From contig JACMPW010000016.1 in NCBI GenBank assembly GCA_014377305.1, positions 1 through 50,780 of the forward strand: a stretch of 50,780 nt of DNA, read 5' to 3'. The position numbers and the translations under genes are program-made. Positions 20-50,273 of the stretch are shown here, in pieces. Below the pieces are notes generated by a model. It saw only the letters and a list, made by a program, of their open reading frames with translations. It had not been told where the DNA came from and ran no database searches. The stretch's first letter is position 1. The number at the start of each line of letters is the position of its first letter. This DNA comes from Candidatus Altimarinota bacterium (GTDB lineage Bacteria; Patescibacteriota; Gracilibacteria; BD1-5; UBA2023).

Positions 20-51
20 AAAAAACCTTCTCTATTATGGGAAGGTTTTTT
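20..51. terminator. Bidirectional hairpin terminator
   Basis: An 11-bp inverted repeat (AAAAAACCTTC / GAAGGTTTTTT) with a 10-nt loop and a T-run on either strand. It would end a gene lying left of the window. It also argues against starting the ABC-F gene at the ATG at 37, which lies inside the hairpin. Confidence 0.75.
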
Positions 52-63
52 ATAAAAATATCT

Positions 64-1890
64 ATGATCCCATCTCTCATCACTCGTGTCATCACTGCCC
101 ACCCCGACTTCACCCATGATGAGGTCGCTGAAGTGTGTCAGGACTATATGGACTCGATGACGAGTGAGAAGATCAAAGATGAAACCAAGATAAAGCGTCT
201 CATGAAGTACATCGAGAAAGAGTTCGAACTCGGCGAATCCAAGATCGAGAAAACCTCTAATAAAATCTACAATCTAGAGTCTGTTCCCGAGTATCTTTTT
301 TCCGGGGAGTCTCGTATCGTCTCAGCACTCGTCTCTATCACAGGCCTCGTGAAAAATATCGAACAGACCGAGCTCTTCGCGGATGCCGAGATGCAGATCA
401 ACCGTCGTGACAAGGTGGCACTCATCGGCAAAAATGGAGCTGGAAAGACTACTCTACTCAAGATGATCATCGGTCGAGAGGGCGAATATAAGGGAACTAT
501 AGAAAAGGCGACAGGACTCAAGGTGGGATATCTCTCCCAGGATCTCTTCTGGCAGGATATGAGCAATACCCTCAGAGCCGAGATGCTCATGGTATTCCCA
601 GATATCACAGAGCGGATAGTCAGACTCACCGAGATCGAGTGGGACGATAACCAGTGGGAAGAGACGGATGCGATCAAAACATACCTCCGAGACCATGATG
701 GATACCGTAGATATGATCTCCAGACGGAGATACTCAGATATTTCGGATTTACCGATGCGATGCTCGATCAGCACGTACTATCGCTCTCAGGAGGTGAACA
801 GACCAAGGTACAGATCGCGAAGTTCCTCATCACTGAGGTCGATCTCCTCATCCTCGACGAGCCGACGAACCATCTCGATATCGAGGGGATTATTTTCCTC
901 GAGAGATTTTGCAAAATCTGGAAAAAGGCTATCCTCTCCATCTCCCATGATGTCCGTTTCATCGATAATACCTCGGATCGGATCGTGGAGATCTCAGGAA
1001 AAAAACTCAATAACTACCAAGGCAAATACGCGGACTACCTCGTCGAGAAACAAGCGAGATATGATAGACAGCTACGGGCACATACACTGCAAAAAAAAGA
1101 AATAGAAGAGCAAGAAGCGTGGATCAATCGGTTCCGCTATACTCCGTCGAAGTCCAACAGTGTCCAGAGTCGCATCAAGCAAGTGGACAAGATCGAGCGT
1201 ATCGACAAGCCTGAGGGCGAGTCAACAGTCAGGAATATCACTATCAAGGCAGGTAAGCGACTCCCAGAGAAGATCATGACGATCACGGATCTCGCTGTCG
1301 GATACAACACACCGATCATCACGACTCACGGAGAGCTGATAGTGAGAAAAGATGAGAAAATCGGGATCATCGGACGCAATGGTGCTGGGAAGACGACACT
1401 ACTGAAAACCATCCTCGGAGAACTCCGAGCCCTCTCAGGAACCGTCACGACCAATCCAAATCTCATTATCGGATCCTATTCTCAGGTGCTCGCCGACCTG
1501 GACGGGAGTGCGAGTATCATCACCGAGCTCACTCGCAACTCTGGCAACGAGGGCGAGATCCGAGCAATGCTCGGTGGACTCCTCATCACGGGTGACAAGG
1601 TAGATCAGACGATCGCTACACTCTCAGGTGGTGAGCGGGCCAAGGTGGCACTCACGAAGATGCTCCTCACTCATCCTCATGTCATCATCATGGATGAGCC
1701 GACGAATCACCTCGATCTCCACTCCAAGGAAGTGATCAAAAATATGCTCGAACACTTTGACGGGACGAGTCTCATCGTCTCACATGATCGGGATCTGCTC
1801 GAACATATATCGAACCGTGTCTGGCTGATACAAGAGTGAGTACTCATGACTTTCGATGATCCTGAGCGAGGTTTTGTTGAGGTGTTTTAG
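64..1890 (+). CDS. ABC-F family ATPase (translation factor / ribosome protection type)
   Basis: A soluble protein of 608 aa with two ABC nucleotide-binding domains and no membrane segment, the ABC-F layout of proteins that act on the ribosome (EttA, Uup, ribosome-protection factors). Domain 1 has Walker A GKNGAGKTT (~122), signature LSGGEQTK (~241) and Walker B LLILDEPTNHLD (~261). Domain 2 has GRNGAGKTT (~437), LSGGERAK (~521) and VIIMDEPTNHLD (~541). A charged linker joins them. An extra ~100-aa N-terminal segment precedes domain 1. I chose ATG 64 because an earlier in-frame ATG at 37 lies inside a terminator hairpin; a TATAAA box at 51-56 sits 7 nt before it. The TGA at 1837 is read as Gly, which adds 16 residues before TAG. 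No other in-frame TGA occurs, unlike the neighbours. The exact ABC-F subfamily cannot be told. Confidence 0.9.
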
Positions 1891-2573: not shown

Positions 2574-4352
2574 ATGAATCACCTCAATATCAACATCAAT
2601 ACCTATGAGCGAGACGGTGATATCATCATCGGAGATATCCATATGATCATCAATCAGACCGACAGGCTCGCTCTCATAGGGCCCAACGGTGTGGGCAAGA
2701 GTACTCTGATGCGGATCATCTCTGGAGAGATATCTGAGTATGATGGGAGTATAGAGAATATCGGTGGTATGACGCTCGGATATCTCGAGCAGATACACTT
2801 CATGGATGAGTCCATCACGATACGAGATGAGCTCCGAGATGCTTTCGCAGAGATACGACAACTCGAGAGGATCATAGCAGTCGAAGAGGAGAAAATGGGT
2901 GAAACGGGAGAATTCGAGGCATATACCGATGCTATCGATCGCTACAAGATACTCGGTGGCTATACCTATGAGAACGAGGTAGAGAGAGTCGCCCGTGGGA
3001 TCGGGATATTTGACCTCCTCGAGAAACCACTATCGAATGTATCTGGTGGAGAGCGCACCAAGATTGCCCTGGCGAAGATATTGCTCTCTCGTCCTGACTT
3101 TCTCCTCCTCGATGAGCCAACCAACTTCATCGATCTCGTCTCAGTCGAGTGGCTAGAGCACTACCTCGAGCACACGTGGAAGTGAGGCTATATCATCGTC
3201 TCACATGACCGTGAGTTCCTCGACCGTACCTGTAGTATCACTCTAGAGGTACTCGGCAAAGACGGTATCAATACCTATCATGGTGACTACTCGTATTCAG
3301 TAGAGGAACGCAAAAAAGTGAGCTATATTCAGGATAAAAGATACGAGGAACAACAGATCCATATCGAGAGTGAAAAGAAACTCATCAACCGATTCCGAGC
3401 GGGATCTCGCTCAGGATTCGCAAAAAGTCGAGAGCGTCAACTCGAAAAAGTCGAGATCATAGAGAAGATAGAGACTCGCATCTGAGTCAACTTCATATTC
3501 TCATATGACAAACATGGCCCCGAGACACTCATCAAGATCGAGGATACATTCATCGGACGACATGAGCCACTATTTTTCATCAAGAGTGCAATATTGTCTC
3601 GGTGAGATCGGGTATGAATAGTATGAGAAAACTGAGTTGGGAAATCTACACTCATAAAAACGATACTCGGACAGATGAAACCACTCGAGGGATATCTCAG
3701 TATCCATGAAAATGCTCGCATTCTCTACTTCTCACAACTCCACGAGACACTCGACACGAGTGTGAGTATATATGACAACTTCGCTCGCCATGGACTCCCC
3801 TACTCTCGTGAACGAGTCGGGAGTATCATCTCGACCTATGGGTTCGAGTTCGCAGACTACACCAAGATCGTAGGCAATCTCTCTGGCGGGGAGCGGTCTC
3901 GCCTCCTTTTTGCTATATTGAGTCAAAATACTCTCGCTTGGAAATATACCAAAAAAACTAATAATCCAGAAGATGAATACCTCATTCCAGAATCTTCATC
4001 TCTATCTAATGTCTTAGTTTTTGATGAGCCAACAAACCATCTCGACGCTGATACGAGAGAGTCACTAGAGCGATCGATCCGTCAATATCCAGGTACTGTA
4101 CTATTCATCTCTCATGATCGCTACTTCGTGAACAAGCTCGCAGAGCGTCTCTGGATCATCGAGGATGGTGAGCTCATCATCTCATATGGCAACTACGAGG
4201 ACTATAGATACAAGCGTGAGCGAGGGATCGACCTCGATATGAGCCTATTCAATGTCGATGGCGAGATGGATCTCGTACTCGAGGAAAAGCTAGGTGTAGT
4301 AGAGGCTCGACGAATCAAGGAGAAGTTCGCTAGACGCAAGCTCAAGAAATAA
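2574..4352 (+). CDS. ABC-F family ATPase, second copy (UGA-rich)
   Basis: 592 aa with tandem ABC domains, a second ribosome-acting ABC-F type protein and clearly a different paralogue from the one at 64-1890. Domain 1: GPNGVGKST (~36), VSGGERTK (~156), Walker B with DEPTNFID (~177), where Phe replaces the usual His. Domain 2: GENGVGKST (~351), LSGGERSR (~436), VLVFDEPTNHLD (~479). A basic, helical linker with KKLINRFRAGSRSGFAKSRE joins the domains. Six in-frame TGAs occur. Those at 3603, 3615, 3624 and 3633 encode glycines in and just before the second Walker A, with the frame reading R-G-D-R-V-G-I-V-G-E-N-G-V-G-K-S-T. This is the strongest proof in the window that UGA is glycine. The gene ends with TAA and a strong terminator. 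An earlier ATG at 2541 lies in the terminator loop and was rejected. Confidence 0.92.
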
Positions 4353-4422: not shown

Positions 4423-7400
4423 CTATTGTATCACTGATATATTGTAGACCATAGATGGGAGATCGATAGCCGCTGCAGATACATTGCAGAATTTTGCCTC
4501 GACCGTATTGGCGGCTGACACTCGAGTATATGCTATGATCATACGATCAGCAAGGGCTGATGTAGGTGATATGGTAGCGACTCATCCGACGACAGCATTG
4601 GTAACAGTGAATGTCTGAGCAAGACAAGCAGATGTTGCAATAGATGCTATATCAACAGTAGGTGCCGCCTTGATAAAGGCATTGAGCTGAGTTCCGTTGG
4701 TTCCGAGTTTAAATGTACCAGCTACATCCAGTTTCGATGAAGGACTCACACCGATACCAACATTTCCCGATGTATCGATCCTCATACGTTCAGTATTATT
4801 TGTCGCAAATACGAGTATACCATCTGCAGGAGAGAACATACCACCATCAGTATCTCCAGGAGAAGAAAATAGATATCAGTTTGATCCATTGAACAGTGAT
4901 CATCCGACTGCTCGTATTCCTCCATCTACATCAAGTAGACTCGACGGTATCGGTGTACCGATACCGACAGCTCCAGTACTCGTCATACGCACTACTTCGA
5001 CTGGTGCCACATTGGTCGTTGTACTACGATTGGCGAATACGATATCACCCTGAGTATTCCCCGTAGTACTCGTCGTGATAAATCCTATCTCTGCAGGAGC
5101 ATACCTGGTCGTACCAGCGAGTCCACTATACCCGAATCCGATAGTCTGGATTGCTGTGATCCTATTCTCGAGTCCTCCGATATTGAGATATGGGATACCA
5201 TATGCGACTCCGAGATTGGCATCAGCTCATTGTACTCATCGCTTGATCATCATCTGTGGGACTGCAGAGCTGGTAGAGCCTACAGGAGATCCTGCTACAA
5301 CAAAATGACGATCTGGAAATGAGGTACCGATACCGATCTGCCCTCCTCCCGTGATCGCCTGGAGCTGTGAGTTGAGTCCCGTATTGATATAGAGATACTC
5401 ATTGTGGTTGGCTGGGATCGAGAGGACTCGCTGCCATGGAGCTGGGGTCTGATAGGGTGAGTCATTGGTATAGAGTCATCCAGTACTATTACCATTGAAC
5501 CGACCACTACGAGCAAAGAGTGGAGCATCACCACGAGCACCGAGTGCGAGCTGATAGCCAAATGTATCTCCCTTCGCTGACATGGTGAACGAGTTATATG
5601 GACTCGCGGAGATACCTGTGACAGGATCTGGATCGACACAATCATATGCCCCAGGAGAACCATAGGTACCAGTTATCGAACAGAGTGCATCCGTACCATT
5701 TTCCTTGAAATATGGTCCATTGTTTGATGGTCCATCTCATTTGCTCACGACGAATGACTGCTTACCTGGAATGGCAAAATATTGGTTGAAGTCATAACTC
5801 ACATTGAATGTATTGAGATCAGGATTGGGCGTGGGAGGTGAACTACGGAGAGTACCCGTGTATACGGCAATATTACTGATTGGACTAATCGGAATGACCT
5901 TTCCTGATGCATCGACACCGAGTGCGAGCACATTGTTTGAGGTGAGAGGAGTCGAGAGATTGATACGAGAGAACTTGAGTCCAGAGTCGTTGGCGATACC
6001 AGAGTCGATGACAAACTTGGTAGTGAGACTCACTCCTGTTCCTACACCGATATTGGTCCCATTATCGAATATCTGAGAAGCATAGAGTCCAGTACCTCCA
6101 GTACCAAATTTGGAGATATAGTTCTCTACTCCTCCTGTGATACCTGTAGCTGTTGCACCTGAGAGTGATGATGACCATGTGGCGAGACCGGTAGCATCTG
6201 AGGTAAGGATCTTGCCTACACCTGGCGTACCACCAGTGATACGCACCGTACCAGATACTGTCAGAGTAGTAGTAGGTGCGTTGGTACCGATACCGACGAA
6301 GTTGCCTACATTGTACATCACTGATCCTGTGAGAGCATCTCAAAGTGTAGCATCTGCTCGTGGTATCTGATTTGGGAGAAATCCCAATCCTGAAACACCT
6401 GCCGACCATGCACAGTTGGATCACATCTTATTCACTCCGTTGATCCACATACGACACTCTTGTCCTCCATTCTCAGAGAGAGTGAGCATCGGAGTAGTAG
6501 AGTTCGTACTACCGAGAGATTCTACTGTAATATATCCGACTGTTGCAGCACCTCATAGAATACTAGAGATATCACCTATGTAGAGTTTTCATCCTGTTTC
6601 ATAGAGTTGTGAGTTGCTGATGAGTCCGCCACTATCGAATTTGGATATATAGTTCGGTGTACCACTACTGCGGACGATATTATTGAGACCTGCCCAAGAC
6701 GATATACAGATATCATTGATGCAGAGTCCACTACCCGTATTGAGTATACTCCCTGATCCTCGCATATCGAACATGTACTGTGGATTGATGGTATTCATAC
6801 CGACTCGAGAACCAGTATAGTAGAGTGATGTCGAGTAGAGCCCAGTACCTCCAGCTCAGAAATATGGCATATAGTATCCAGAGCCTCCTATGATCCCTGT
6901 AGCGGTAGTGCTACCTGAGAATCCAGTCATCCAAGTAGCAAGACCGCTCGCATCTGAGGTGAGTATCCGTCCGAGACCAGGCGATCCACCTGCTATACGT
7001 ATCTGATTAGAGAGATACAGATTCTGCCATGGGAGAGCAACCGATCCGATATCACGATACATCGCTGGAGCAGCTGCATCAGGGAGGAGGGATCCTGATA
7101 CCGTCACATTGGCGACAGTACGATTGACTATCGTATCCGTGATGACCTTGCCCTGGACAGTGATGTCACCCGTGATCAGTGCTGATCCTGATACACTCAG
7201 CTTCGCCGATGGAGTCGATGTGCCTATACCAACATTGGATCCTGAGTTATAGATATTGGTCGAGGATACCCAGGTAGTACCGTTGTAGTAGAGAGTAGAT
7301 CCAAGTACTGATCCAGATATCGAGAGTCCTGTAGCAATCGGAGATGTCCAGCTCGCCACACCGAGTGCATCAGATACGAGATAGTATCCACTCGCAGAGC

Positions 7401-9459
7401 CAGTACGGAGACGGATCTGTCAGTTGACATCGAGTGTGGATGTAGGAGTTGTAGTACCGATACCTACTCCTGTACCAGTATCAAAAATCTGAGATGCGTA
7501 GAGTCCTATACCTCAGGTACCGAACTTGGATATATAGTTCTGAGTACCTCCTATGATTCCTGTGGCAGTAGCACCCGAGATGGATGAAGACCAAGTAGCG
7601 AGACCAGTAGCATCTGAGGTGAGGACTTTGCCGAGACCTGGTGTACCACCAGTGATCTTGACTTGTCACGCGACTTCGAGACGAGCTCATGGACTCGCAG
7701 TACCGATACCAACTCCTGTACCAGTATCAAAAATCTGAGAATTGGCTATGATAGATCCGTTCCACTTGGTTACATAGTTCGCGAGTAGTCATGAGCCCGA
7801 TATACCGATAGAATCATTGGAACATATCCAGTTGGACAGTGTACCACTCCAAGCAAGAATCTGTCCAGCAGAACACGGAATATTGTTGGGACGATAGTCC
7901 AGACTGGCCCCTGCTCATCCTATACGCACTGATCCAACAATATCGAGACGAGCTCATGGAATAGTAGTGCCGAGTCATACTCCTGTACCAGTATCATAGA
8001 GTTGTGAGTTGTTGATACCAGTACCCGTAGGGGTATACTTGGCTATATAGTTGGTCGTACCGACGAGTGGACCTGCGAGACCGAGAGTAGTAGTAGATGG
8101 TGCAGCAGCTGGAGTCTGCCAAGTCGCTATACCCGATATATCACTCGTGAGCACTTTACCAGTTCCCTCCGTTCCATCTACGATCTTGATATTTCCTGAG
8201 AGATCGAGTCGAGCCAGTGGATTGAGTACCCCTATACCGATATTCCCATTGTATCCATAGAGTACATTTCCGATATTGATCTGATTCGAGAGGGTATCAG
8301 ATATATTCGGTTGAGTATTGTATCCGATGAATATGTTATTATTCCCTGATGTGAGATTGGATCCTGCAAGATATCCGAGAGCCGTGTTATTGTATCAGAC
8401 GGTAGTATTATAGAGTGAGCTCATTCCGATTGCACTATTCTGGTATCCGGTGATATTACTGTAGAGTGCATTATATCCGTTGGCTGTATTGGTGGGGATA
8501 TTCGAGGCTCATCGTCCCACTGTGATTCAGTTGATAGTAGCGTCTGCGGTAGTGACGAGATTGCTACTAGCACCAGAGAGACGCATCCCCTCGATACTAT
8601 TGCGTCGGAATACGAGATCGACATTATCAGCCGTACCAACATAGTCAGTTGCTGAGGTAGTACCAGAGTTGCCAGTCTGCCGCCAGAATGCTCCAGAGAG
8701 AGCAAAGTCTGCAGTACTCACAGAGGGCTGCCATGAAGCGAGACCTGTTGCATCAGAGGTCAATACTCTCCCTGAGGCAAATCCACCACCCGTGATACGA
8801 ATTGTCCCTGCGATATCGAGCTTGGCCCCTGGAGCTACCGTACCGATACCGATATTGGTACCGTTATCGAAAAACTGAGATGGATAGAGTCCTGTACCTC
8901 CAGTACCAAATTTGGATACATAGTTCGCGACTCATCCAGTGATCCCTGTTGCTGTAGCACCTACTATTGCGGACGACCAATATGCGAGACCCGTCGCATC
9001 GGAGGTAAGTACACGATTGAGTCCAGGAGCTCCTCCTGTGATCTTCATCTGACCGGCTACTTCGAGACGAGCAGTCGGAATAGCGGTACCGATTCCAACA
9101 TTGGTACCATCGTCATAGATCTGAGAATTGTTGATCCCTGTACCAGTAGGAGTATACTTAGCTACATAGTTCGGTGTACCGACAAGTGATCCCGAGAGTG
9201 AGAGTGTAGCACCAGATACTGGCGTGATAGGCAGAGTACTACATATCTGTACTCCTGTCGAGGTGAACCCGATGATGATCTCATTCGAGAAACATATATT
9301 GGAGAATATATTAGTAAAATATGTATTGAAATATCACCCCGTCACCTCACTCCCTCCAGGATTGGGGAGAGTAGGATAGGTCACTGCGTATAGTGATGAT
9401 AGCATGAGACTCGTCGAGAGAGAGATGATGAGTGACAGTCGAGAGAGAGATGGTCGCAT
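4423..9459 (-). CDS. Giant tail-fibre-like surface protein (VGIGT modules)
   Basis: 1678 aa, secreted. The N-terminus is a signal peptide (MRPSLSRLSLIISLSTSLML, then LSSLYA). Most of the protein is about twelve degenerate modules of the type NVGIGT..P.AKL.VAG..KITGG.PG.GK.LTSDATGLA.W, the pattern of phage tail-fibre and bacterial surface-fibre beta-structured shafts. A short stretch with NTAIG-like repeats occurs near 8290-8520. The C-terminal ~75 residues (ACLAQTFTV, then RVSAANTVEAKFCNVSA and a terminal hydrophobic strand) look like a globular cap also seen at the ends of fibre-like proteins; no S74 chaperone is present here. TGA codons restore one continuous frame from ATG 9459 to TAG 4423. 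Likely a trimeric or fibrous adhesin; the target is unknown. The start is 48 nt from the stop of the upstream sister gene and has its own promoter. Confidence 0.85.
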
Positions 9460-9469
9460 GGAGAATGAG

Positions 9470-9497
9470 GATATATACTATAACTATGTAAAATCAA
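9470..9497 (-). promoter_or_regulatory. Promoter of the 1678-aa surface protein gene
   Basis: On the minus strand: TTGATT, 16 nt, TATATC. The -10 ends ten bases before ATG 9459, giving a leader of only a few bases. It lies in the 48-nt gap between the two giant genes. Confidence 0.5.
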
Positions 9498-9507
9498 ATC
9501 TAGTTGA

Positions 9508-12500
9508 CTACTTCGCGAGTCTCGCCTCGATAGCATCGAGTCGTTTTTTGAGTGACTCATTCTCTGATCTGAGGACAACTATATCAGCTTTGTTTGATTT
9601 GACTATGGTAGCGAGTTCTTTGATAGCCTCGATCACTGGAGCGATGAGATGTCCATATTCGACGTTCTTGTATGTTTTTTTGGAGTCTGGATCAGTGTAT
9701 TCTCATACAGCATCAGGGAATATTTTCTCTACCTCTTGGGCTATGAGTCCGAGGTCTTTTTTATCATCTTTTTTCCACTTAAAGTAGTATCCATTCATCG
9801 CTGTGACCTTATCGAGAGATGATGTGATTTTGACGAGGTCTTTTTTGAGACGAATATCTGAGATATAGTAGTAGGCTGGAGAGTTCATATATGCACCGGC
9901 CTGTATGACTGAGTCTACATACATATATTTTCATCCGTAGCTGCGTATCCACGTAGGATCAGTCATCCACCATCCTCATCCATAGGGCTGAGAATACCAT
10001 CCAGCATTCCCATTGGATCTGAACCATCCATTGTTAAATATCTCATTTCCTGTTATAGATCAGTTAGCATTGATATTTCCTATGTTATTCTGACCACCGT
10101 TAGTATCCCAGTATACCATCCAGCTGCCGTATCCATTGAGGAATCAGATCACATTGGAGTTCGCATGGATAGACTTGGGTCATCCGGCTGATTCATCACT
10201 ATCAGGCATAAAGAATTGTGAAGATGTAGTACCCATAGCACCATTGGCGGCCCTAGCACTATCTACACGTACTCCATAAGTATTGGCTCCGTTCCATCCC
10301 ATCAGAGTAGGATAGCTTCATGTCCATTGTGCTTGTGAGTCTGTATTGCTGATACCTCCTCCAGCAGGTGATGACCCAGCAGAGGCATCGATGATAACAT
10401 GACCATTTCCATAATTTTTCCATCTCATATATTGAGAGGTACCGATATCGTTACTCGAGTCGTTACGAGCAGTGTCTCAGAGTGACTTCGCTGTGACTCC
10501 AGCCCATGCTACATTCGTTGCACTATCTGCATTATCGACTCTACCATTAGTATTAGCATCACAGCTACTTCCCCATCCGCCCTCACATCCGACTTCGAAC
10601 ATACGTACTCGACCAGTGACATTGTTTGCGGCAAATGCTGGCGATCCAGTGATACCTGTCCATGGAACTGATGAGGCAGCTCATGGGGTGGCCCAACTCG
10701 CAAGTCCAGATGCATCTGAGGTGAGGACTTTGCCATTTCACTGTGTACCATCTGTGATCTTAATATTACCTACAATATCAAGCTTGGCTCCTGGAGTCGC
10801 AGTTCCGATACCGATATTTCCTACACTATCTACTCTCATACGTTCGACGTTATTTGTTGCAAGCAGGAGAATACCGTCTGCAGGAGAGAACATGCCACCG
10901 TCAGTATCTCCAGGAGATGCAAATGAGTAACCATTGGTCGAGTTGAATACTGATCCACCGAGAGCTCGTACTCATGCACCAGCAGTCATAGATCATGCTA
11001 CTGTTTCATTGCCACTCTGATCCACTTGCCATCTCGCACTTGGTGCAGACCATCCTCCGAGACGGAATACGTTGTCAGGATCGAGACCGAGATTGATAGC
11101 ATATGCACCCGCACGATGGAACGACATAGCAGCCGCACCTCCATCAGTCGAATATGCTTCGAGTCAATAAGTATTATTAGATACAAGGTATGATGTCGCT
11201 CACTTATTCGAGAGGAAATACTTGACTCCAGTGACCGTCTGAAAACTCGAGAGATCGAGAGCATCTGTGATACCATATCATGCTATAGTAGTAGGCTTAC
11301 CAGTCAAACCAGCCCATGCTACATTCGTTGCACTATCTGCGATATCGACTCTACCATTAGTATTAGCATCACAGCTACTTCCCCATCCGCCCTCACATCC
11401 GACTTCTAACATACGTACTCGACCAGTGACATTGTTTGCGGCAAATGCTGGCGATCCAGTGATACCTGTCCATGGAACTGATGAGGCAGCTCATGGGGTG
11501 GCCCAACTCGCAAGTCCAGATGCATCTGAGGTGAGGACTTTTCCGGCTCCTGGGGTACCACCAGTGATCTTGACTTGTCCTGCTACTTCGAGTTTGGCTC
11601 CTGGTGCAGAGGTTCCGATACCTATATTCCCACTCGTTCCATAGATCCAGTTCCCTATGGAGAGCTGATCAGTTGCGGTAGGTGATGCTACCTGAGAATT
11701 GTATCCGATAACAATATTGGATCATCCTGTGGTGATATTGGAGCCTGCACGACTACCAATGGCAGTATTGTTGTATCCTGTCGTATTTGCTACAAGTGCA
11801 TTGAGTCCAATTGCTGTATTTTCAGACCCTACAGTGTTCACCTGTAATGAATATGACCCGACCGCTGTATTCCAATTTCCAGAGGTATTAGACATTAGTG
11901 ATGTTATACCGATTGCTGTATTCCAGTGTCCATTATTGGATCCCAGTGTATAACTTCATATAGCAGTATTATAATTACCAGTTGTGTTATTATTAAGTGT
12001 ATAACTTCATATAGCAGTATTCAGCTGACCAGACGTACCTAAAGTATAAGAACTTATTCAATAACACGTGTTACCCATTCCGCTTCCTGGACATACTTGT
12101 CATGATGTTGCAGTGACCCAACTTGCCAATCCACTCGCGTCACTCGTGAGTACTTTGCCTACTCACTGAGTGCTATCTGCTATTTTAATATTACCTACAA
12201 TATCAAGCTTAGCTCATGGGACAGTAGTACCAATACCGACATTACCACTCGCGAGAGAATAGAGTGACTGATTGAGTGCAACCATACTATCAGCGTTACC
12301 TATTACTATAGGACGATATCCATTCCATCCACCATATGGACTACCTGATGCCGTGAGGAGGAAGTAAGTATTACCACCATCATTGCGGATAAACGAGCCA
12401 TAGTTACCATACACAGCTCGGAGTTGTCATCCTGCACCGATATTGGATGAAACAATCTCACCATCGACTTGGAACTTCGATACAGGATTCGCAACTCCTA

Positions 12501-14283
12501 TACCTATATTTCCACCACTTCCGTAGATCCAATTCCCTATCGAGAGTTGGTTAGATCCTACATTAGATGCTACCTGTGCATTGCTACCTATAGCGATATT
12601 GGATGAGCCTGTAGTGATGTTGCTACCAGCAGAGTTACCAAGAGATGTATTGTTGATTCCGGTGGTATTGGCATATAGAGCCGCATATCCATTGGCAGTA
12701 TTATTGTTTCCGGTGGTATTCCATAAGAGACTCTGATATCCTATTGCAGTATTTCCTACTCCAGTATTCGCACTTGCTGGTGCTGATCCACGAAGACTCT
12801 CATATCCAATGGAAGTATTGGTATTGGTCCATGGAGTGGTGGTATTATTAGCGAAATATTGAGAATTGTATCCGATAGCAACACCATTGGATCATGCTTT
12901 ATTACTAAGTAAGGTGTATGCTCCGTGTGCAGTATTATTGGATCCAGTAGTTAGATCAGGGTCAGCGAAATAACCAAACATGGCATTGGAGGATCCTGTA
13001 GTAACTCCAAATGCCGTATATCTTCCAAAAAATGAATTATAAGAATAATTTCCACCAGTAACACCATATCCGGCATAATCTCAGACAACAGTATTATCAA
13101 CACCTGTTTGATTATAGTATCCTATCCAGTTTCCTATTGCTGTATTTCTTGATCATGTGGTATTTGCACCCAAAGAATAATAACCTGCTGCAATATTCAT
13201 ACCTCCACTTATATTACTAGCAAGAGATCAGAATCATATTGCCGTATTATTAGCACCTACAGTATTATTCGACATACTTGAGAAACCGATGGCAGTATTA
13301 GCATTAGCAGTGTTATTATAGAGAGCGCTGGCTCCATTCGCAGTATTGTACATACCGGTAATATTGGAGCTGAGAGTAGAAGCCCCAATCGCAGTATTAT
13401 TGGTTCCAGTGGTATTGGCCTGGAGGGCTCTATTTCCTATTCCGATATTCCCAAGATTCATACTACTAGCAGATCCGGCACCGAGACCGAGATAGGTATT
13501 ATTGTTATCAGTTCCTCCTATGATCCCTGCTTTGGTTCCATTGACCTGAAATACGAGAGCCTGATTATCAGTTGTACCGATGAAATTGGTTCCAGAATTA
13601 GTTCCAGCATTTCCAGTGAGTCCCCATCCAGATGACGCAGCCGTCGTCCAACTCGCGAGTCCACTCGCATCACTCGTGAGGACTTTGCCTGCCCCAGGAG
13701 TACCTCCAGTGATCTTGATTGTACCTGCTACTTCGAGCTTGGCTCCTGGAGTCGTGGTACCGATACCGACGTTCCCCCCTGCAGCATTGATCGCGACAGC
13801 AGTATATGGAGAGTCTGATTGGATGTTGAATACCCCACTCGCATCGATACCTGTCCAATACTTGCGGACACCACCGATTAGCCATTCTATATAGTTGTAT
13901 GTGGTACCACTTGTCTTGTTGAGTCTGAGGAGATTGTCCTGTGTTCCTGCTATCTCGAGCTTGGCTCCTGGAGTGTTTGTTCCGATACCGACATTGCCTG
14001 CTCCAGTGAAGTATATATTAGTTCCAGCATCAGTTGATGTCCAGTATTGCGTGCTAGCTGATGCGGTACAGAGCAATATACCAGTAGTAGAAAAGCCCCT
14101 AAGAACTTGACCACCACTACATCCGGTTGTGTTAAACATATTTGTAAAGTATCCATTGAACGTACCACTACCCACCTCTCCAGTAGGAGTCGTAGAGGGA
14201 TATGGAATGGCTCATACTGATGGAGTGAGTATGAGTGCTCCGACGAGTGAGAGGAGAGAGATGAGTGAGATATATATTCGCAT
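9508..14283 (-). CDS. Giant surface fibre protein with C-terminal S74-type autocleaving chaperone
   Basis: 1591 aa. Order from the N-terminus: signal peptide (MRIYISLISLLSLVGALILT), VGIGT shaft modules, a long run of NTAIG-type repeats as in YadA-like heads (13490-12560), further shaft, a second NTAIG run (12060-11650), two near-identical in-frame copies of a ~78-residue segment, a Tyr/Trp/Gly-rich region, an S74-type domain (SDIRLKKDL from residue ~1475, later LGLIAQEVEKIFPDAV), and a C-terminal coiled coil ending RLDAIEARLAK before TAG. In known S74 (endosialidase) chaperones the domain trimerises the fibre and cleaves itself off before the Ser of the SDxRxK motif, with Ser and the Lys five residues later as the dyad; both are present. 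Inference: a trimeric fibre whose last ~117 residues are removed after folding. No phage genes are nearby, so this is probably a chromosomal adhesin. Confidence 0.88.
9650..9863 (-). other. S74-type intramolecular chaperone domain of the surface fibre
   Basis: Domain mark within the 1591-aa protein. It starts at the SDIRLKKDL motif (Ser ~1475, Lys ~1480) and runs through MNGYYFKWKKDD and LGLIAQEVEKIFPDAV. This spacing of Ser-Asp-x-Arg-x-Lys and IAQEVE is the hallmark of the family. The boundaries are approximate. Confidence 0.8.
10499..10731. repeat. Long direct repeat, copy 1 (within surface fibre gene)
   Basis: About 233 bp, nearly identical to 11309-11541; only a few substitutions are visible (for example CGACTTCGAAC against CGACTTCTAAC). 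The offset is exactly 810 bp (270 codons), so the duplication keeps the reading frame. Confidence 0.9.
11309..11541. repeat. Long direct repeat, copy 2 (within surface fibre gene)
   Basis: Partner of 10499-10731. The near-identity at nucleotide level means a recent duplication or ongoing gene conversion inside the fibre gene. Confidence 0.9.
11650..12060 (-). repeat. NTAIG-type head repeats, block 2
   Basis: Protein-level repeats of ~14-25 residues around NTAIG / NTAVG with NTTG, YNNTAIGS and similar variants. They lie in the 1591-aa protein, between shaft modules. Confidence 0.75.
12560..13490 (-). repeat. NTAIG-type head repeats, block 1
   Basis: Over 900 bp coding for serial NTAIG / NTANG / NTGVG motifs (for example NTTGTNNTAIGASTL). 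The pattern resembles left-handed beta-roll heads of trimeric adhesins. Several repeats include TGA-encoded glycines. Confidence 0.8.
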
Positions 14284-14326
14284 ACTGGGATAATTAGAGA
14301 AATATGGAAACAAACAAAGTGATGAG

Positions 14327-15709
14327 CTATCTCGACTCGGCGAACCCTGGTGGAGGATCAGTGAGTATCATCGGATCATACTCGATGACCATGACAGCAT
14401 CTTTGATTTTAGCTACACTTGATCTCTGAGTTGGGAGTGATGATTGACTAGTAATGAGAGGATTATAGGTACGGAAGTAGTCCCAGTCATAGGAGTATAC
14501 ATTGGCTTGGTTACATCCAGTCACCAGTGCTGGGCAGATAGGAGGAGTTTGCTGAGATCCACCGATAGTATTTTTGGATGCCATGAGACCTCGGATATAG
14601 AGTTGGTTCTGTGGGATATTCCAGATACCAGTATTGCTATATTTGACTATAGGAGATGCACTCGATGCCTTGTCTCATGAGAATATACTCCCCTCAGCAT
14701 AGAGGTATCCATATATACGCTTGACTCCGTCGCCGATGACGATATTACCACCATTGCCAGCGGCATCCTGCAGTGCAATGAGAGCGATAGTAGGATCAGT
14801 CCAGATATCATTTACTCATGTTTGAGTGATGACTATATCTCATCATATCACTATGAGTGATCTTTTCTTTGCTGTGAGATATGGGGTGAGTGAGGAGTTC
14901 TCAATACGCAGATCAGATCATTTTCTGATAATAAAATTGAACTTGGTATCAGTACTCACTGGATCGAGATCACTATCACTGATATTTCTCGTCATGAGAG
15001 CAATATTGCGACGGATCATATTGAGTATGCTCGCATGATTGATGGTCTTATAGCTATATCAGACATCTTGATTGACGACACCGTTGTTCTGTACAGAGAA
15101 TACTTTGGTGCCCGCTATATTCCCGACGATTGCTATCTTGGAGACAAAGTTTATCGGGACACCTGCGAGCGGGTCGACGACGGTGCTCGGTGTTGGGAGG
15201 AGAGATCCTGATATACTCGTCCACATAGGGATCCATCCGAGTGATCGACTCCATGCCCAACCGGCGAGATTGCCAGTATTGGGATCAAAATATACACCAG
15301 TCCCAACTCCGATATCTCCCTGAGAGAGAGCTATCCATCCAGCGTTCTGACTCCAAGCATATCCACTGGCAGGACACGACTGAGTAGCACCTGTCCAGAT
15401 AGTAGAGGGACAGTTGACTCGAGCGATGCTCGTAGCAGTCAGATCACCATGTGAGAATGTTGTCCATCATACATTACCGAGCCAGAATGCACCCGATAGA
15501 GTACCATCAGATCTGATCTCACCATTTCCAGCATCAAAATTGACTACTCCAGGGTATCCACCACCCGTGAAACTAGTACCAAGATCACCACTCCAGCCAT
15601 TGTGGAGAGGAAATACTCACCGAAGTGAGAATGATGGATTTCATACTGCTAGCAATACCCCAGAGCATACGAGAGAGAGAAGAAGTACGAAGAATATTTT
15701 GCCTTTCAT
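14327..15709 (-). CDS. Secreted protein of unknown function, upstream of the giant fibres
   Basis: 460 aa. The N-terminus MKGKIFFVLLLSLVCSGVLL is a signal peptide, followed after a TGA-encoded Gly by an exported domain rich in G, S and T. The middle holds NAGWIALSQGDIGVGTG and a Trp-rich part. The C-terminal half carries SLTPYLTAKKRSLIVIGGD, IALIALQDAAGNGGNIVIGD and a stretch about NQLYIRGLMASKNTIGG, a pattern I associate with secreted parallel-beta-helix-like proteins of candidate-phyla bacteria, but I cannot name a family. It is the first gene of a minus-strand run with the two giant fibres (43-nt gap to the next), so it may help to export, anchor or assemble them; that is inference. It ends with TAG. 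Confidence 0.75.
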
Positions 15710-15734
15710 AGTATGCTGTATATAATTAAGAGAC

Positions 15735-15762
15735 ATTGTATCTGTCAGACAGTAAAAATCAA
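15735..15762 (-). promoter_or_regulatory. Promoter of the surface-protein run
   Basis: Minus strand TTGATT, 16 nt, TACAAT, with a predicted RNA start ~20 nt before ATG 15709. It lies in the divergent gap opposite lgt. Confidence 0.55.
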
Positions 15763-15817
15763 AAAAAATCACTTCACAAAGAACAATCAGATTGTATTGT
15801 ATAACTCCTGTATTCAT

Positions 15818-16588
15818 ATGTATATCTTCGATCTTCATTTTTACGCTCTCCATATAGCTCCAACTTGGTATGGTCTCTCGTATGCTCTTGGGTTTATTAT
15901 TTGTTACTTTTTTATGAGATACTATTTCTCTTTCAGAGAAATAGGCCATATTGATACACTCCTATCCTACATATTCGCAGGGATCATACTTGGAGGTCGT
16001 ATCGGATATATTGTACTATACAATCTCTCATACTTCATAGAGCATCCGATGAATATGATACGAATATGGGAATGAGGGATGAGTTTCCATGGAGGACTCA
16101 TCGGTACGATACTCGCAGTACTATTTTTTGCATGGAGATATCACTATCCGTTCTGGTCACTCATCGATACGCTCGCTATCGTCATCCCTGTGGCCCTCGG
16201 ACTCGGTAGAGTCGGCAATTGGATCAATCAGGAACTCCCAGGGTATACACCATATGACGGGATATTCCCGATGCAGATCGCCTGAGTAGCACACTTCCCT
16301 TCTCCACTGCTCGAGATGCTCCTAGAGGGTGTAGTATTATTTATAGTGATGCTTATAGCATGGAGATCTTCGACCAAGCGAAATCCCTGATTTTTATCTG
16401 GGATTTTTCTCATCGGATATAGTGTAGCTCGGCTCATAGCAGAACAATATCGGCTACCCGATAGCCATATCGGATATCTACTCTCTACTCATTGGCTGAC
16501 ACTCGGTATAGTCTATACAGTACCTATGATGGTATATGGAGTATATTTAGTTTATACTTCTACTCGATCTCGTCCTGGGAGGATATAA
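15818..16588 (+). CDS. lgt: Prolipoprotein diacylglyceryl transferase
   Basis: 256 aa, multi-pass membrane enzyme. It transfers diacylglycerol from phosphatidylglycerol to the lipobox cysteine of prolipoproteins, the first step of lipoprotein maturation. The Lgt landmarks are clear: N-terminal PTWYGLSYALGFI, the invariant GGMSFHGGLIG (residues ~86-96), and GLGRVGNWINQELPG (~128-142). Gly86 of GGMSFHGG is encoded by TGA, as are two further glycines. I chose ATG 15818 because it aligns with usual Lgt N-termini and leaves the divergent promoter region free. The 3' end overlaps the convergent LemA-like gene by 37 nt. The size is near the family norm. Confidence 0.93.
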
Positions 16589-18768: not shown

Positions 18769-21423
18769 ATGTCAGATTTTCCAAAACAATACGATCCAAA
18801 AATACATGAGAAAGCAAGTCAGGCACTCTGGGAAGAGAACAAGATATACCAGCCAAATGTAGATACCCGAAACTCTAAACAAGAGACGTTCTATATTCCT
18901 ATTCCTCCCCCGAATGTAACAGGCAATCTCCATCTCGGACATGCCCTAACTCTCTCGATCGAGGATATCATGACTCGCTACCATAGACTCCGTAGGGATG
19001 CAACCCTCTGGGTACCAGGGACGGATCATGCTGGTATAGCAACCCAGGCTCAAGTCGAAAAGCGTCTCGAGAAAAATGGAACAAGCCGCAAAGCAATAGG
19101 ACGAGAAGCATTTCTCGGAGAATGTTGGAAATGGATCGATGAATACGGAGGAAATATCCAGAATCAGGTCAAAATGATGGGAGCATCAGTGAACTGGGAT
19201 ATGGAGAGATTCACATTCGATGACAAGAACAATCAACTCGTCGAGAAGATATTTGTCGATCTCTATGAGAAGTGACTCATATACCGTGGTGAGTATATGG
19301 TGAACTATTCTCCAGTGCTCGAATCAGTGATATCAGATATCGAGGTCGAGCATCAGGAAGTATCTGAGTATATGTACTATATCAACTACTTTGTCTCTGG
19401 ATCAGACAAGGAGCTCCTCGTGGCGACGACTCGTCCTGAGACCCTCCTCGGAGATATGGCACTGGCAGTCCACCCAAAGGATAAAAGATACAAGAAACTC
19501 ATCGGCAAATCTGTCATCCTCCCAATCGTCAATCGTGAGATCCCGATCATCGGAGATGAGAGTATCGATATGGAATTCGGTACTGGAGTCGTCAAGGTGA
19601 CTCCTGCACATGATCCGAGTGACTTCGAGATGGGGCGTCGACATTGACTCCGTATGGACTACCGTGTCATAGAGAAGACAGGACTCATGAGTGCTGAGGC
19701 CGGAGTATTCGCTGGACTCTCCGCAGTCGGTGAGGCTCGTGATAACATCGTCGAACTACTGCGAAGCAAAGGTAATCTCGTCAGGATCGAACCATACACT
19801 CATACGGTCGGATTCTGTTCTCGAGGCAAATGCCGTATCGAGTCAGTAGTATCTACTCAGTGGTTTGTACGAGCCAGCACAATGGCCGAAAAGGTAACAA
19901 CAGGATACAAGAAATGAGAATTCAAAATAGTACCAGAACGATTCAATAAAACATTCGAAGATTGGATCTACAATCTCCGTGACTGGTGCATCTCTCGTCA
20001 GCTCTGGTGGGGACACCAGATTCCTGCATATTACGATATCAATACGGGAGAGCTCCTCGGAGTGACTCGAGATCCGAGTACTCTCTTTGCTAAATATGGA
20101 GAAGAAAATGTTCGTCGTGACGACGATGTCCTCGACACCTGGTTCTCATCGGCACTCTGGCCATTTGCAGTGCTCGATTGGGATTTTGAGAATCCGAGTG
20201 AGTTCTTCGCGAAGTATTATCCAGCCAATGTCCTCGAAACAGGCTATGATATCCTATTTTTCTGGGTGATCCGTATGCTCCTGATGGGGTATGAATATAC
20301 CTGAGAAACTCCATTCAAAACGATATATCTCCATGGACTCATCCTCGATGAGACAGGACGTAAGATGTCCAAGAGTTGGGGCAATGTCATCGATCCGCTC
20401 TCAGTCATCGAGGCTCACTCGACTGATGCACTCCGTCTCGCTGTCACTCTCGGCAATACTCCTGGGAACAATATGAACTTCTCTATGAGATCGGTCGAGG
20501 AGAACTCACTCTTTCTCAACAAGTTCTGGAATATTATCCGATTCGCCTGGATGAATGTCGGGTATATCACGGATACACGGGAATCCATAATAGAGCAGAT
20601 AACAAAAAATAAATCCGATCTCCTCCCCTACGAGGTATGGATACTCTCTCGTCTCACGGCTATCATGGATCGTGCCACTGAGGGAATGGAGAATCACGGA
20701 TTCGCTGCTGCTGGATCAGACCTGATCACGTTCATCCGGGATGAGTTCGCAGATATAGCTATAGAGGCATACAAGGTAGAAAAAGAATCGAGTAAATATG
20801 GCAAAGAGGTCATATCTCTCTGCGTCCTCGATATCATCACACTGATGCACCCGTATATCCCACACATCACTGAGACACTCTATGGGTATATCACAGAGGG
20901 TCAGCTCCTCGCGACTGCATCCTGGCCGACTCCTGCCATGTCACGAGATATGGGGAGCGAGCGAAATCTCGAACAAATCTGGGAAGTAGTACGGACTATA
21001 CGTAATATCCGAGCTGAGTCAGGCATCAAGCCAGGAGAATATCATGATACTATCATCCAGGCAAAATCAGATATGATAGGTAATCTCGAGAATAATATCA
21101 CTCTCATCTCTGGTCTCGGTCGCGTCAATATCACTCTCAATCCGAGTGGACAAGATCCTCGGGATCATGCGTATGGTATCTGTGGATCTGTCGAGATATA
21201 TATCCACAACGAGATCGATATCGCAGGGATCGAGATAGAGAAGACGAGAATCATGGGACTCATCGAGGAAAAGAGAGACTATATCAGAGCTCTCGAAGTC
21301 AAGCTCTCGAATACTGCATTCACAGCCAATGCTCCTGAGAAGATCATCAGGATCGAGATGGAGAAAAAAAATCTCGCACGAGAACAACTGGAAAAACTGG
21401 AAGAGAAATATGGAAAACTATAA
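18769..21423 (+). CDS. valS: Valyl-tRNA synthetase
   Basis: 884 aa, class I aminoacyl-tRNA synthetase charging tRNA-Val in the cytoplasm. HIGH motif HLGH at 55-58 within [20 protein letters not shown] at 532-536 in [15 protein letters not shown]; editing-domain hallmarks [11 protein letters not shown] and [17 protein letters not shown]-terminal coiled coil ([20 protein letters not shown] and onward). Four in-frame TGAs sit where glycine is expected, for example YEKGLIYRGE after the first catalytic part and RRHGLRMD in the editing domain. An in-frame TTG at 18757 lies upstream, but ATG 18769 gives the usual [10 protein letters not shown] start. TAA is followed by a strong terminator. Length is typical. 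Confidence 0.96.
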
Positions 21424-27848: not shown

Positions 27849-28802
27849 ATGATTTTTTTAATTTTCGGATCTCTTGGACTCATATTTGGAAGCTTCTCCA
27901 CTGTACTCATTGAGAGGTGGCATAGCGGAAAATGAGGTATTATGATGGGTCGTAGTGAATGTCCACACTGTCATCATACGCTCACATTCTGGGATCTGTT
28001 TCCCCTCTTATCATATCTATGGAATCGTAGTAAGTGCTCTCACTGTGGTACAAATATCCCATTATTCTATCCGATGGCAGAGCTCCTTATGGGCTGTATT
28101 TTTGTCATAGGAGCATACGCAGGTATACGTATATGAGTAGATCCTATCAGTGGTGAGATGCTTCTTCTTCTCATATTTATATTCACAACAGGGGTATATA
28201 CTCTCTATGATCTGAGGTATATGGAAATACCTGATCAGATCATGGTACCAGTGATATATATACTTCTTGCTATACCATTTATATCTATCTTATTCGCGTC
28301 ATACTCAGGCTATACTTTTCATACTTTTCATATACCAACTATTGATCGACTATTTGGAGCAATAATACTATATACTTTTTTCTATTTGCAGATATTGATT
28401 CCTGGTTGATATTACCTCATACAACGTAGGGATTGGAAACACTTTTGAGAACTCATTATCGGATATATAACATTCCCGATAATGATGCTCATAGATATAT
28501 GGAAAAAACCAAAAAAAGAAGAATCTCTCGATATACCGACTTGGATCGGTGGTGGCGATCTGCGAATTGCACTATTTATATGACTCACCCTTGGTATAGT
28601 ACACGGCATAGCGAGTTTCGCATTTGCCTATATTATAGGAAGTATCGTATGAATTGGTATACTGTTATATAACATCCTTAGATGAAAACAAACAACATCG
28701 CAGATTCCTTTCGGTCCGTTCCTATCAATAGGATGGATACTGAGTATCTTACTCTATCCAGAGATAATAGTTCTATATAATATATTGGTCACAGGTCAAT
28801 AA
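27849..28802 (+). CDS. pilD: Type IV prepilin peptidase / N-methyltransferase
   Basis: 317 aa, polytopic membrane aspartic protease that cleaves and N-methylates type IV prepilins. The N-terminal domain has the two CxxC pairs of the zinc-binding cytoplasmic loop (CPHCHH ~38, CSHCGT ~64). The catalytic aspartates lie in YDLRYMEIPDQI (~119-130) and in the GGGDLR motif (~235), matching the GxGD family. About seven glycines are TGA-encoded, including one just before GIMMGRSECP. It lies four bases after recO. A pilin-like protein is encoded ~2 kb downstream at 30787 and is the obvious local substrate. Length is slightly above typical (~260-290). Confidence 0.92.
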
Positions 28803-42315: not shown

Positions 42316-42352
42316 AAAAAATATCTCTCAAATAATTTGAGAGATATTTTTT
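42316..42352. terminator. Bidirectional terminator between PKD protein and pyrH
   Basis: 17-bp arms AAAAAATATCTCTCAAA / TTTGAGAGATATTTTTT with a 3-nt loop, between convergent genes. Confidence 0.85.
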
Positions 42353-43080
42353 TATTTTTTATGATTCTTGGTATGGACATATGTCCCTCGGATCTCGTCA
42401 GATCCGATGAGATGAGTGTCCTCGATCCGACAGACGAATATAGGCATATCCTCATCATGAGCAAGGGCTATAGCCGTCTGATCCATGATCCTCAGATTCT
42501 TGTGGAGAGCCTCTTCGAGAGAGAGTATTTCATAGTGCACAGCATCCGCATGTTTCTTGGGATCCTTGTCATATATACCATCTACCTTGGTGGACTTGAC
42601 TACACAGTCACACTGGAGTTCGAGTGCTCGTAGTACTGATGCGGAGTCAGTAGTAGCATAGGGATTGCCAGTACCCCCGACGCAGATCACGACCCTCCCC
42701 TTTTCTATATGACGGAGTGCTCTGCGAGCGATGAAGTCTTCGGCAACTCTATGTGTCGGAACTGCAGACATTACCCGTACATCAACTCCAGCTGCCTCGA
42801 TCGCCTCACCTATAGCGAGTCAGTTGATGATTGTTGCCATCATCCCCATCTGATCTCCGATCACCCGATCAAATCAACCTTCTTCGAGCTGTATACCTCG
42901 GAATATATTCCCACCACCGATCACGATCGCGATCTCGAGTTTACGAACTTGTACGAGGTATACGATTTTTTCTGCTATATAGGTAAGGAATTCTGGATCG
43001 ATCCCGTATCATTGCTTTCACTGGAGGGCTTCACCAGAGAGCTTGAGGAGGATTCGTTTGGGAGTGTGATATTGTTTCAT
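42352..43080 (-). CDS. pyrH: UMP kinase
   Basis: 242 aa, amino-acid-kinase fold. It phosphorylates UMP to UDP with ATP, the entry to UTP and CTP. Motifs: KRILLKLSGEALQGKQGYGI at the N-terminus, VIGGGNIFRG, DQMGMMATIINGLAIGEAIE, VCVGGTGNPYATTDSAS-type segment (VICVGGTGNPYATTDSASVL), KVDGIYDKDPKK and NLRIMDQTAIALAHDEDMPI. Four TGA glycines are needed, for example the Gly in INGLAIGEAIE and in ALQGKQG. The first 106 nt overlap the end of the upstream HTH protein in another frame. Stop TAA lies in the shared terminator. Confidence 0.95.
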
Positions 43081-45229: not shown

Positions 45230-46753
45230 ATGTCCCTCCACCTCTACAATACTCTCACTCGCACGCTCGAACGATTCAAGCCCCTCCGCCAAGAAGAGGT
45301 CAAGGTCTACTACTGTGGACCAACTCCCTACAACTATGCCCATATCGGCAATCTGCGAAACTATCTCATGGATGATATCATCGTGCGAACGATGCGATTC
45401 CTCGGGTACAAGGTCCGAACAGTGATGAATGTGACTGATATCGATGACAAAACCATCCGTGACTCTCAGAAATCAGGAAAGAGCCTCAAAGAGCTCACAG
45501 AAAACTATACAAACGAGTTCCTTGCTGACTGTACTCGGCTCGCTATCATCCCTGCGGATACTATTGCTCCGATATCGACTCTGATTCCAGATATGGGAAC
45601 AATCATCGACGGACTCATAGCGAAGTGATATGCCTATCTCGCTGATGATGGGAGTGTGTACTATAGCGTAGCAAAATTCCGGAAGTACGGCGAACTTGCT
45701 CATCTTGATACAAAATGAATGATATCGAGTGTCCGTATCGACAATGATGAATACGAAAAAGAACAGGTGGCAGACTTCGCACTCTGGAAGGCGTATGATG
45801 CTGAGGCGGATGGCGAGAACTCATGGGAGATCGAGGTCACAATAGACTGAGAGAAGAAGATCCTCAAGTGAAGGCCAGGCTGGCACATAGAGTGCAGTGC
45901 TTGTAATATGAAATTTTTCTGAGCACAGATCGATATCCATATGGGTGGCTGTGATCTCATATTTCCCCATCATCAGAACGAAGTGGCTCAGACGGAGGCA
46001 TACACTGGCAAAAAATTCGCCAACTATTGGCTCCATGGCGGACACCTCCTCGTAGATAACAAGAAGATGGCAAAAAGTGCGAAGAATTTCTATACACTAG
46101 GGGATATATTTGAACAAAATAAAGATATCCCAGAAATTCTGATTGCAAGAGGATTCCGTCTGATGGCACTCCAGAACCAATATAGAGAGAATTTTAACTT
46201 CACATTCGAGAGACTCGGTGCTGCGATCAACACGATCCGCGGGCTCGATGAGATGATGAAACGACTCGGTCGATATCGAGATCTATTGCTCCGAGACAAA
46301 GTAGAACTCTCAGATGAGGACCTGACCCTCACGGCGAAGTGACGGATCAAGTTCCATGATATCACTCGCGAGTTCCGTGAGAACCAGCAATCCTATATGC
46401 AAGAGTTCATAGAAAAGCTCGAAGACGACTTCGACACACTTTCAGCTATGGCGACAGTATACGAATATCAGACCTACATCAATACAGGTATCGATGATAG
46501 CCTCTTCACCGCCTGAGAGTGCAGCTCCCTCATCGGACTCATGCAGAGTTGGAATGAGGTAGTCTCGATTTTTGATTTTGATCTCCTCACCTCAGAGTCT
46601 CTCCCTGCAGATATATCTCGCCTTGCGGAGGCTCGCATACTGGCAAAAACTCTGAAGGACTGGGCAGAATCCGACCGTATACGTGATGAACTCGTCTCTC
46701 TCGGATACAAGATGATCGATGAGAAAGATGGATGGAGGATGGAGAAGGTGTAG
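45230..46753 (+). CDS. cysS: Cysteinyl-tRNA synthetase
   Basis: 507 aa, class I synthetase charging tRNA-Cys. Motifs: VYYCGPTPYNYAHIGNLRNY (zinc Cys and HIGN in the HIGH position, ~38), NVTDIDDKTI, RPGWHIECSACNM, IDIHMGGCDLIFPHHQNEVA (zinc ligands Cys, His, and Glu near), NYWLHGGHLLVDNKKMAKS with KMAKS in place of KMSKS (~279), and a C-terminal DWAESDRIRDELVSLGYKM helix. Seven TGA glycines fall at sensible places, for instance in LKGRPGWHIECS. Start ATG 45230; an in-frame ATG at 45191 gives an atypical extension. No Shine-Dalgarno. argS follows after 49 nt. Confidence 0.95.
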
Positions 46754-46802: not shown

Positions 46803-48605
46803 ATGCAAAACTTACAATCCATCATCTCTTCTCATATCTCGACTCTATACTCGGATATCTTATTCTCCGCTACCCTATCGGCTCCGCCAAAACCTGAACA
46901 CGGAGAATACTGTTTCGGAGTTTTCACACTCGCGAAGCCTCTCAGCAAGTCTCCAAATCAGATTGCTGAAGAGATCGCGAGCAAACTCCGTGAGGATACT
47001 ACTCACTTCACGCAAGTGAATGTGATCGGTGGATATGTGAATCTCTCATGTGCTGCGAATGTATGGATGGATATCCTCTCACAAGTAGAGAATCAGCAAC
47101 AAGAGAAGAAAAATCAAACAATCGTCGTCGACTATATCGGTGCTAATGCTGGGAAGCCACTCCATATCGGACATATCTGTACTCCATCTATCGGTCAAGC
47201 AATCTGCAATATCTATCGTCATCTCGGATATTATGTGATCTGAGATTCTCATTTTGGTGATTGGGGAGGGATTTTTGGGAAGTTAATTTGGTCATTCAAG
47301 AATGATTGAATCGCAGCATTTAGTACAGAAAGTGATAAAATAAGTTATAGGAAAGCATTTCTAAATAATTTATCTATTGATAGTTTACTTGAATTATATC
47401 AATCATTTCATATACCGATATTAGGCAATGAAGATGATGCAAAAATAAAACAAGAAGATAGAGAAAATGGTGCACGAATTGAATTTAAAAAACTTGTGAG
47501 TTGAGATTTTGAAAATGTAGAACTTTGGAAAAAATTCACCGCCATCTCAATCACTGAGATAGAAAAAAAACTCGGTGTTCTCGAGATCAAAGCAACTTAT
47601 AATATCGGTGAGAGTTTTTACGAATGACTGAACTTACCTCGTCCGAACAACGAAGACTATCCAAATCTCGAATTCAATATGAAGGATATAGTCCGCGAAC
47701 TCATCGAGAAGTGAGTAGCAACTCAGAATGAGGATGGTAGTGTAGGAGTCGTATTCCCAGAGGAGTCCAAGATACCATCGTGTATCCTCCAGAAAAAGGA
47801 TGGAACAGGACTCTATCTCACGAGTGATCTCGCAGCGATCAAGTATAGGATGACCAACGGATGGAATCCATCGAAGATCATCTATTGTGTCGATGTCCGA
47901 CAACAGCTCCACCTGAGACAAGCAATCTGGATCGCAAAGAAAGCATGGGGACTCGAGAATGTCGAACTCTTTCATGCGTTCAATGGATTCATCAAGCTCA
48001 AGGAAGGAACGATGTCGACTCGTCATGGTACAGTGATATTCCTCGAGGATCTCATCACAGAGGGGGAAGAAAGGACGAGTCAGCTCCTCGCAGAGAAGTG
48101 AAGAACTGGAGACAATGCACTCTCGCCAGAGGATATCGAGGCGATCACGATCGGTGCCATCAAGTATAGTTATCTCTCACAGGATCGTGAGAAGGACGTC
48201 ACTTTTGATTGGGACAAGGCTCTGAGTTTTGAGTGAAACTCTGGACCATATATCCAGTATGCCTGTGTGCGAGCTGCGAAAATCGTAGGAACCATAGAGA
48301 TAAAAAAATATGACTATTCGCAAATAGAGTGACTCTCCCCATACGACACTGCCCTCATACGCACACTCGCTGAGATGGAAGCGAAAATCCAGATAACCGC
48401 CGACACATACAAGCCTCATACTCTCGCACTCTACTGTTATGATCTCGCTGTATGCTTCAATAGTTTTTATGTCCATACGCCCAAGATCCTCGAAGAGTCT
48501 GATGCCGATCTGAAAAATCTCCGACTCACTCTCTGTCGTCTGACTGCCGATAAGCTCACTCTCTGATTCGACCTCCTTGCAATACAGATGCCAAGTGAGA
48601 TGTAG
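46803..48605 (+). CDS. argS: Arginyl-tRNA synthetase
   Basis: 600 aa, class I synthetase charging tRNA-Arg. It has an Add-1 type N-domain ([20 protein letters not shown]), the catalytic [20 protein letters not shown] (HIGH at 121-124), [52 protein letters not shown] (degenerate KMSK region with MSTRHG, normal for many ArgRS), and the anticodon-binding domain with [14 protein letters not shown] and [17 protein letters not shown]. Nine TGA glycines, e.g. in [11 protein letters not shown] and TLGFDLL. A stretch at 47270-47560 is more A/T-rich than the rest of the gene. The TAG at 48603 is the last host feature before the foreign segment apart from an orphan promoter. Confidence 0.95.
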
Positions 48606-50257: not shown

Positions 50258-50273
50258 TTCAAACCCCTATTTT

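Follow-up and report, generated by a model that had tools for sequence, protein, structure and literature searches.

A gene interrupted by six TGA codons

The window, the whole stretch of 50,780 nucleotides analysed here, is contig 13 of a source genome of 917,877 bases, assembled in 16 contigs at 93% completeness. The genes that bear on its genetic code are as follows:

37..1890, plus strand: first ABC-F ATPase gene, with one TGA close to the C-terminus
2574..4352, plus strand: second ABC-F ATPase gene, 592 aa, with six in-frame TGA at codons 204, 304, 344, 348, 351 and 354
3603..3635, plus strand: four TGA around the second Walker A motif of that gene (RGDRVGIVGENGVGKST), read as glycine, the last two being P-loop glycines
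15713..16588, plus strand: Lgt (prolipoprotein diacylglyceryl transferase), 3 TGA
18769..21423, plus strand: ValRS, 4 TGA
27849..28802, plus strand: PilD-like frame, 317 aa and full-length, 7 TGA, identity by sequence inspection only
42352..43080, minus strand: PyrH (UMP kinase), 4 TGA
45230..46753, plus strand: CysRS, 7 TGA
46803..48605, plus strand: ArgRS, 9 TGA

The second ABC-F frame (2574-4352) ends in TAA, and its six TGA codons are its sole interruptions. Translation with table 11 cuts the gene at 3185 and resumes with a fragment at 3675; once TGA is opened, the same interval yields a single 592-aa ABC-F protein. Standard-code annotation fragments most genes of such genomes, and the genetic code must be set before function is read. 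Direct reading of the letters around the second Walker A motif gives cgg-TGA-gat-cgg-gta-TGA-ata-gta-TGA-gaa-aac-TGA-gtt-ggg-aaa-tct-aca, with TGA codons at 3603-3605, 3615-3617, 3624-3626 and 3633-3635, which confirms the four in-frame positions (3603, 3615, 3624 and 3633) reported in the initial annotation. Its assignment of the last two to the P-loop also holds, as codons 351 and 354 are glycines 1 and 2 of GxxGxGKST.

In-frame TGA codons correspond to glycine

Across the 23 window genes that were counted there are 192 in-frame TGA codons and no internal TAA or TAG, a pattern that is not attributable to chance. Read as glycine, TGA makes up 192 of the 1274 glycine codons of the window (15%).

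Every TGA was masked as X before homologue searches were performed, so that the answer could not steer the alignments. At the four Walker A sites of the second ABC-F protein, the solved homologues EttA and YheS both carry glycine at all four positions, and YbiT carries Gly, Ala, Gly and Gly. The four TGA sites of ValRS are all glycine in ValRS from T. thermophilus, and two of the three sites of Lgt align with glycine. CysRS has glycine at three conserved TGA sites, with residues other than glycine at its variable ones; in ArgRS, glycine occupies four conserved sites, and the best match, 4oby, has Arg, Asn and Val at three further ones. The first TGA site of PyrH is glycine in all homologues displayed, and further sites are glycine in some. 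The proposal that reading through TGA completes Lgt, ValRS, CysRS, ArgRS, PyrH and PilD with TGA at conserved glycines therefore stands for the conserved sites of the first five proteins; the aligned residue is not glycine at one Lgt site, the three ArgRS sites and the variable CysRS sites. For PilD it extends to a full-length frame, which had no NCBIfam match.

Substitution scans, in which a residue was placed at TGA and the protein scored against NCBIfam models, also favoured glycine. With all 20 residues tried in ABC-F, glycine scored best at 355.6 bits, followed by Ala at 344.0 bits; with ten residues each, glycine was best in CysRS (396.6 bits, Ser next at 389.0) and in PyrH (272.7 bits, Ser and Asn next at 270.7). 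The reassignment of UGA to tryptophan (code 4, as in Mycoplasma) is well known in bacteria (PMC8629427), yet tryptophan was among the lowest scorers, at 335.5 bits in ABC-F, 385.2 in CysRS and 261.8 in PyrH. Tryptophan was also not found in the TGA columns of a ValRS alignment, and the tRNA-Trp of the genome, one of 29 tRNA genes in its bin, has the anticodon CCA, so that code 4 is extremely unlikely.

The ValRS alignment was made at the codon level from the window sequence and 28 relatives (29 sequences), nearly all of them named Candidatus Gracilibacteria. Residues opposite TGA are glycine encoded by GGN in 62% of cases, and GGN codons are reciprocally found opposite TGA. The use of TGA among the relatives is very uneven, ranging from 1 TGA against approximately 50 GGN to 33 against 14.

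Code 37, in which UGA is glycine and both CGA and CGG are tryptophan, must be weighed because it is used by Absconditabacteria, a near lineage, and because CGG has been predicted to encode tryptophan in some Gracilibacteria (PMC8629427). CGA and CGG are, however, common in the window (135 and 42 codons, respectively), and in the ValRS alignment they stand opposite Arg (58% and 42%) and Lys rather than Trp, with no CGG seen at conserved Trp positions of ValRS. The ABC-F signature SGGERSR is moreover encoded with CGG at a site that is Arg or Lys in homologues. CGA and CGG thus stay arginine, which separates code 25 from code 37 and leaves the latter very unlikely.

Release factors and the tRNA for UGA

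The genome carries a single release factor gene, which scores under the prfB cut-off and possesses the PET and GGQ motifs of RF1. A profile search at the NCBIfam prfB cut-off did not find RF2 in this genome, and the absence of RF2 anticipated in the initial annotation is borne out, with RF1 as the sole release factor. Of the genomes sampled, none of the 20 from this order exceeds the cut-off, compared with 93 of 125 from the rest of the class. An alternative reading is that the organism uses the standard code and the frames are broken by gene decay or sequencing errors; no evidence in favour of this was found, and the 192 in-frame TGA codons without any TAA or TAG, the interchange of TGA and GGN in 28 independent genomes and the absence of RF2 render it vanishingly improbable.

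The anticodon UCA is absent among the 29 tRNA genes of the 93%-complete bin, and a covariance model search of the bin was also empty. An initial anticodon-loop pattern gave zero matches in the genome, and the four matches to a looser pattern were rejected as chance by ARAGORN and inspection. A 79-nt tRNA with this anticodon is, by contrast, conserved in the same genus (genomes G008 and G011) and throughout the order. Its acceptor, with G1:C72, C2:G71, G3:C70 and U73, conforms to the rule for glycine identity used in PMC8629427, and its covariance model reaches 102-110 bits in 31 genomes belonging to the order, with scores elsewhere of at most 57 bits. The tRNA-Gly(UCA) that had been expected from the codon reading is therefore missing from the genome's own bin and present in its congeners and the order. 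The bin also lacks tRNA-Met, tRNA-His, tRNA-Ser(UGA), tRNA-Ser(GCU) and tRNA-Arg(GCG), and in G008 tRNA-Gly(UCA) adjoins tRNA-Arg(GCG) and an Elp3-like gene, neither of which is in the bin. These absences suggest that tRNA-Gly(UCA) is probably missing through an assembly gap, with the tRNA locus left unassembled.

ARAGORN labelled the UCA tRNA as tRNA-SeC from its anticodon; this label was rejected given the length of 79 nt, the short variable loop, and the tRNA-Gly acceptor with U73. The tRNA-Gly(UCA) of the order (L037-L058; same genus, L041 and L042) forms an anticodon stem of 6 bp, its D-loop lacks the usual GG, and its structure is backed by two-sided changes in five of 22 pairs.

The organism uses code 25

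TGA stands at conserved glycines, RF2 has been lost, RF1 is kept, and CGA and CGG encode arginine. It is nearly certain that the organism belongs to Candidatus Gracilibacteria and uses NCBI code 25, in which UGA is glycine and UAA and UAG are the only terminators. By extension from relatives, a UCA-anticodon tRNA-Gly bearing the glycine identity elements would be charged by GlyRS and decode UGA.

The assignment to code 25 made in the initial annotation is upheld by the glycines at conserved TGA columns, the absence of RF2 and the Gracilibacteria lineage, and its remark that the code was already known is equally correct. UGA as glycine in Gracilibacteria has been predicted and proteomically validated in a BD1-5 bacterium (PMC4032931), BD1-5 genomes have been found to lack prfB and to possess prfA (PMC6851277), and the reassignment has been recovered by genome-wide inference (PMC8629427). 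The present genome shows no essential difference from code 25 in Candidatus Gracilibacteria (BD1-5), sharing UGA as glycine, the absence of prfB and the presence of prfA. The G+C content of the window, 42%, lies inside the published range of 0.21-0.53 (PMC8629427), and TGA accounts for a minor share of the glycine codons. Absconditabacteria (SR1) likewise read UGA as glycine and lack RF2, but differ in that CGA and CGG are arginine in the present genome. The reading of UGA as glycine in the window is thus correct but already published, and the window adds one more Gracilibacteria genome to a known case.

A genome that may lie between codes

A lead of greater consequence than the window itself is G087, a genome of the same class but of another order, of which it is the single representative in the collection searched (956 kb read). 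Its relevant features are:

L140:6984-8006: RF2, 463.6 bits, above the NCBIfam cut-off, with SPF and GGQ motifs
L140:10886-12130: PilB-like gene, 5 TGA
L105:236-312: tRNA(UCA), surfaced in the covariance search, with an acceptor that follows the glycine rule
L203:14308-15417: PilT-like gene
L155:6773-7651, L200:1159-1869 and L142:17628-18929: genes ending in TGA

Opening TGA raises the coding cover of G087 from 0.704 to 0.789, although some gain is expected in any genome: among standard-code controls, a genome of 52% G+C also gained and one of 43% G+C barely did (0.813 to 0.819). The 606 frames of at least 150 aa contain 672 TGA against 15,236 GGN, and 466 of them are free of TGA against 254 expected under even use, so the use of TGA is biased towards a subset of genes. 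This subset includes PKD-domain proteins, pilin-type proteins and pilus ATPases, and the DnaK, RF1 and PolX genes on C31 (named by inspection) have no TGA. For TGA codons in conserved neighbourhoods, the aligned residue is glycine in 10 of 11 comparisons, which cover only five TGA sites, including the first glycine of a PilT Walker A motif. In the PilB-like gene, a residue scan at TGA placed glycine best of ten. The natural end of a WecG-like, an RluF/RsuA-like and a PurA gene is apparently at TGA; in PurA another stop lies two codons past the TGA, so this end is of little weight.

On these sequence features, there is about an even chance that G087 is in transit between codes, with an intact RF2 and a tRNA-Gly(UCA), UGA decoded as glycine in part of its genes, and a few genes still terminated by UGA. 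Mixture of organisms in the bin was rejected as the sole cause of this pattern, as approximately 3 kb of a single N-free contig separates RF2 from the TGA-containing PilB-like pilus ATPase gene; a chimeric contig may nevertheless have joined the two. A literature search did not find a case combining RF2, tRNA-Gly(UCA) and in-frame TGA. If G087 is indeed such an intermediate, a tRNA reading UGA as glycine can arise before RF2 is lost, with UGA carrying two meanings in the meantime. A genome of this type would allow a direct test of how a stop codon changes to a sense codon with its release factor still in place.

Other observations

A further family of the same class, f13, is RF2-less and dense in in-frame TGA (for example G140: L102:260-333, L109 and L110). 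Its tRNA(UCA) is unlike that of the window's order in sequence and has a 5-bp anticodon stem. The family may correspond to Absconditabacteria, and its data may fit either one origin or two for the reassignment of UGA.

At the right end of the contig, two ORFs of 528 and 164 aa (window 48671-50768, minus strand) contain no TGA among 47 glycines, all encoded by GGN, for which the chance is 0.85^47, or approximately 5e-4. The first of these ORFs ends in TGA, and readthrough would overlap ArgRS in antisense. The pattern points to foreign DNA in the standard code or to a chimeric end of the contig. Neither ORF had a Pfam match, and the 528-aa ORF had no match among plasmids.

The window also encodes two very large proteins:

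4423-14400, minus strand: two giant proteins of 1678 and 1630 aa

No Pfam match was found for the first; the second (1630 aa) possesses Gp34_trimer and Peptidase_S74 domains and resembles a phage tail fibre. A PKD-domain protein of the window (34682-39880) ends in DIPNWLK, and a PKD protein of G087 (L156:6279-9575) carries DIPEWLK, a common C-terminal motif.
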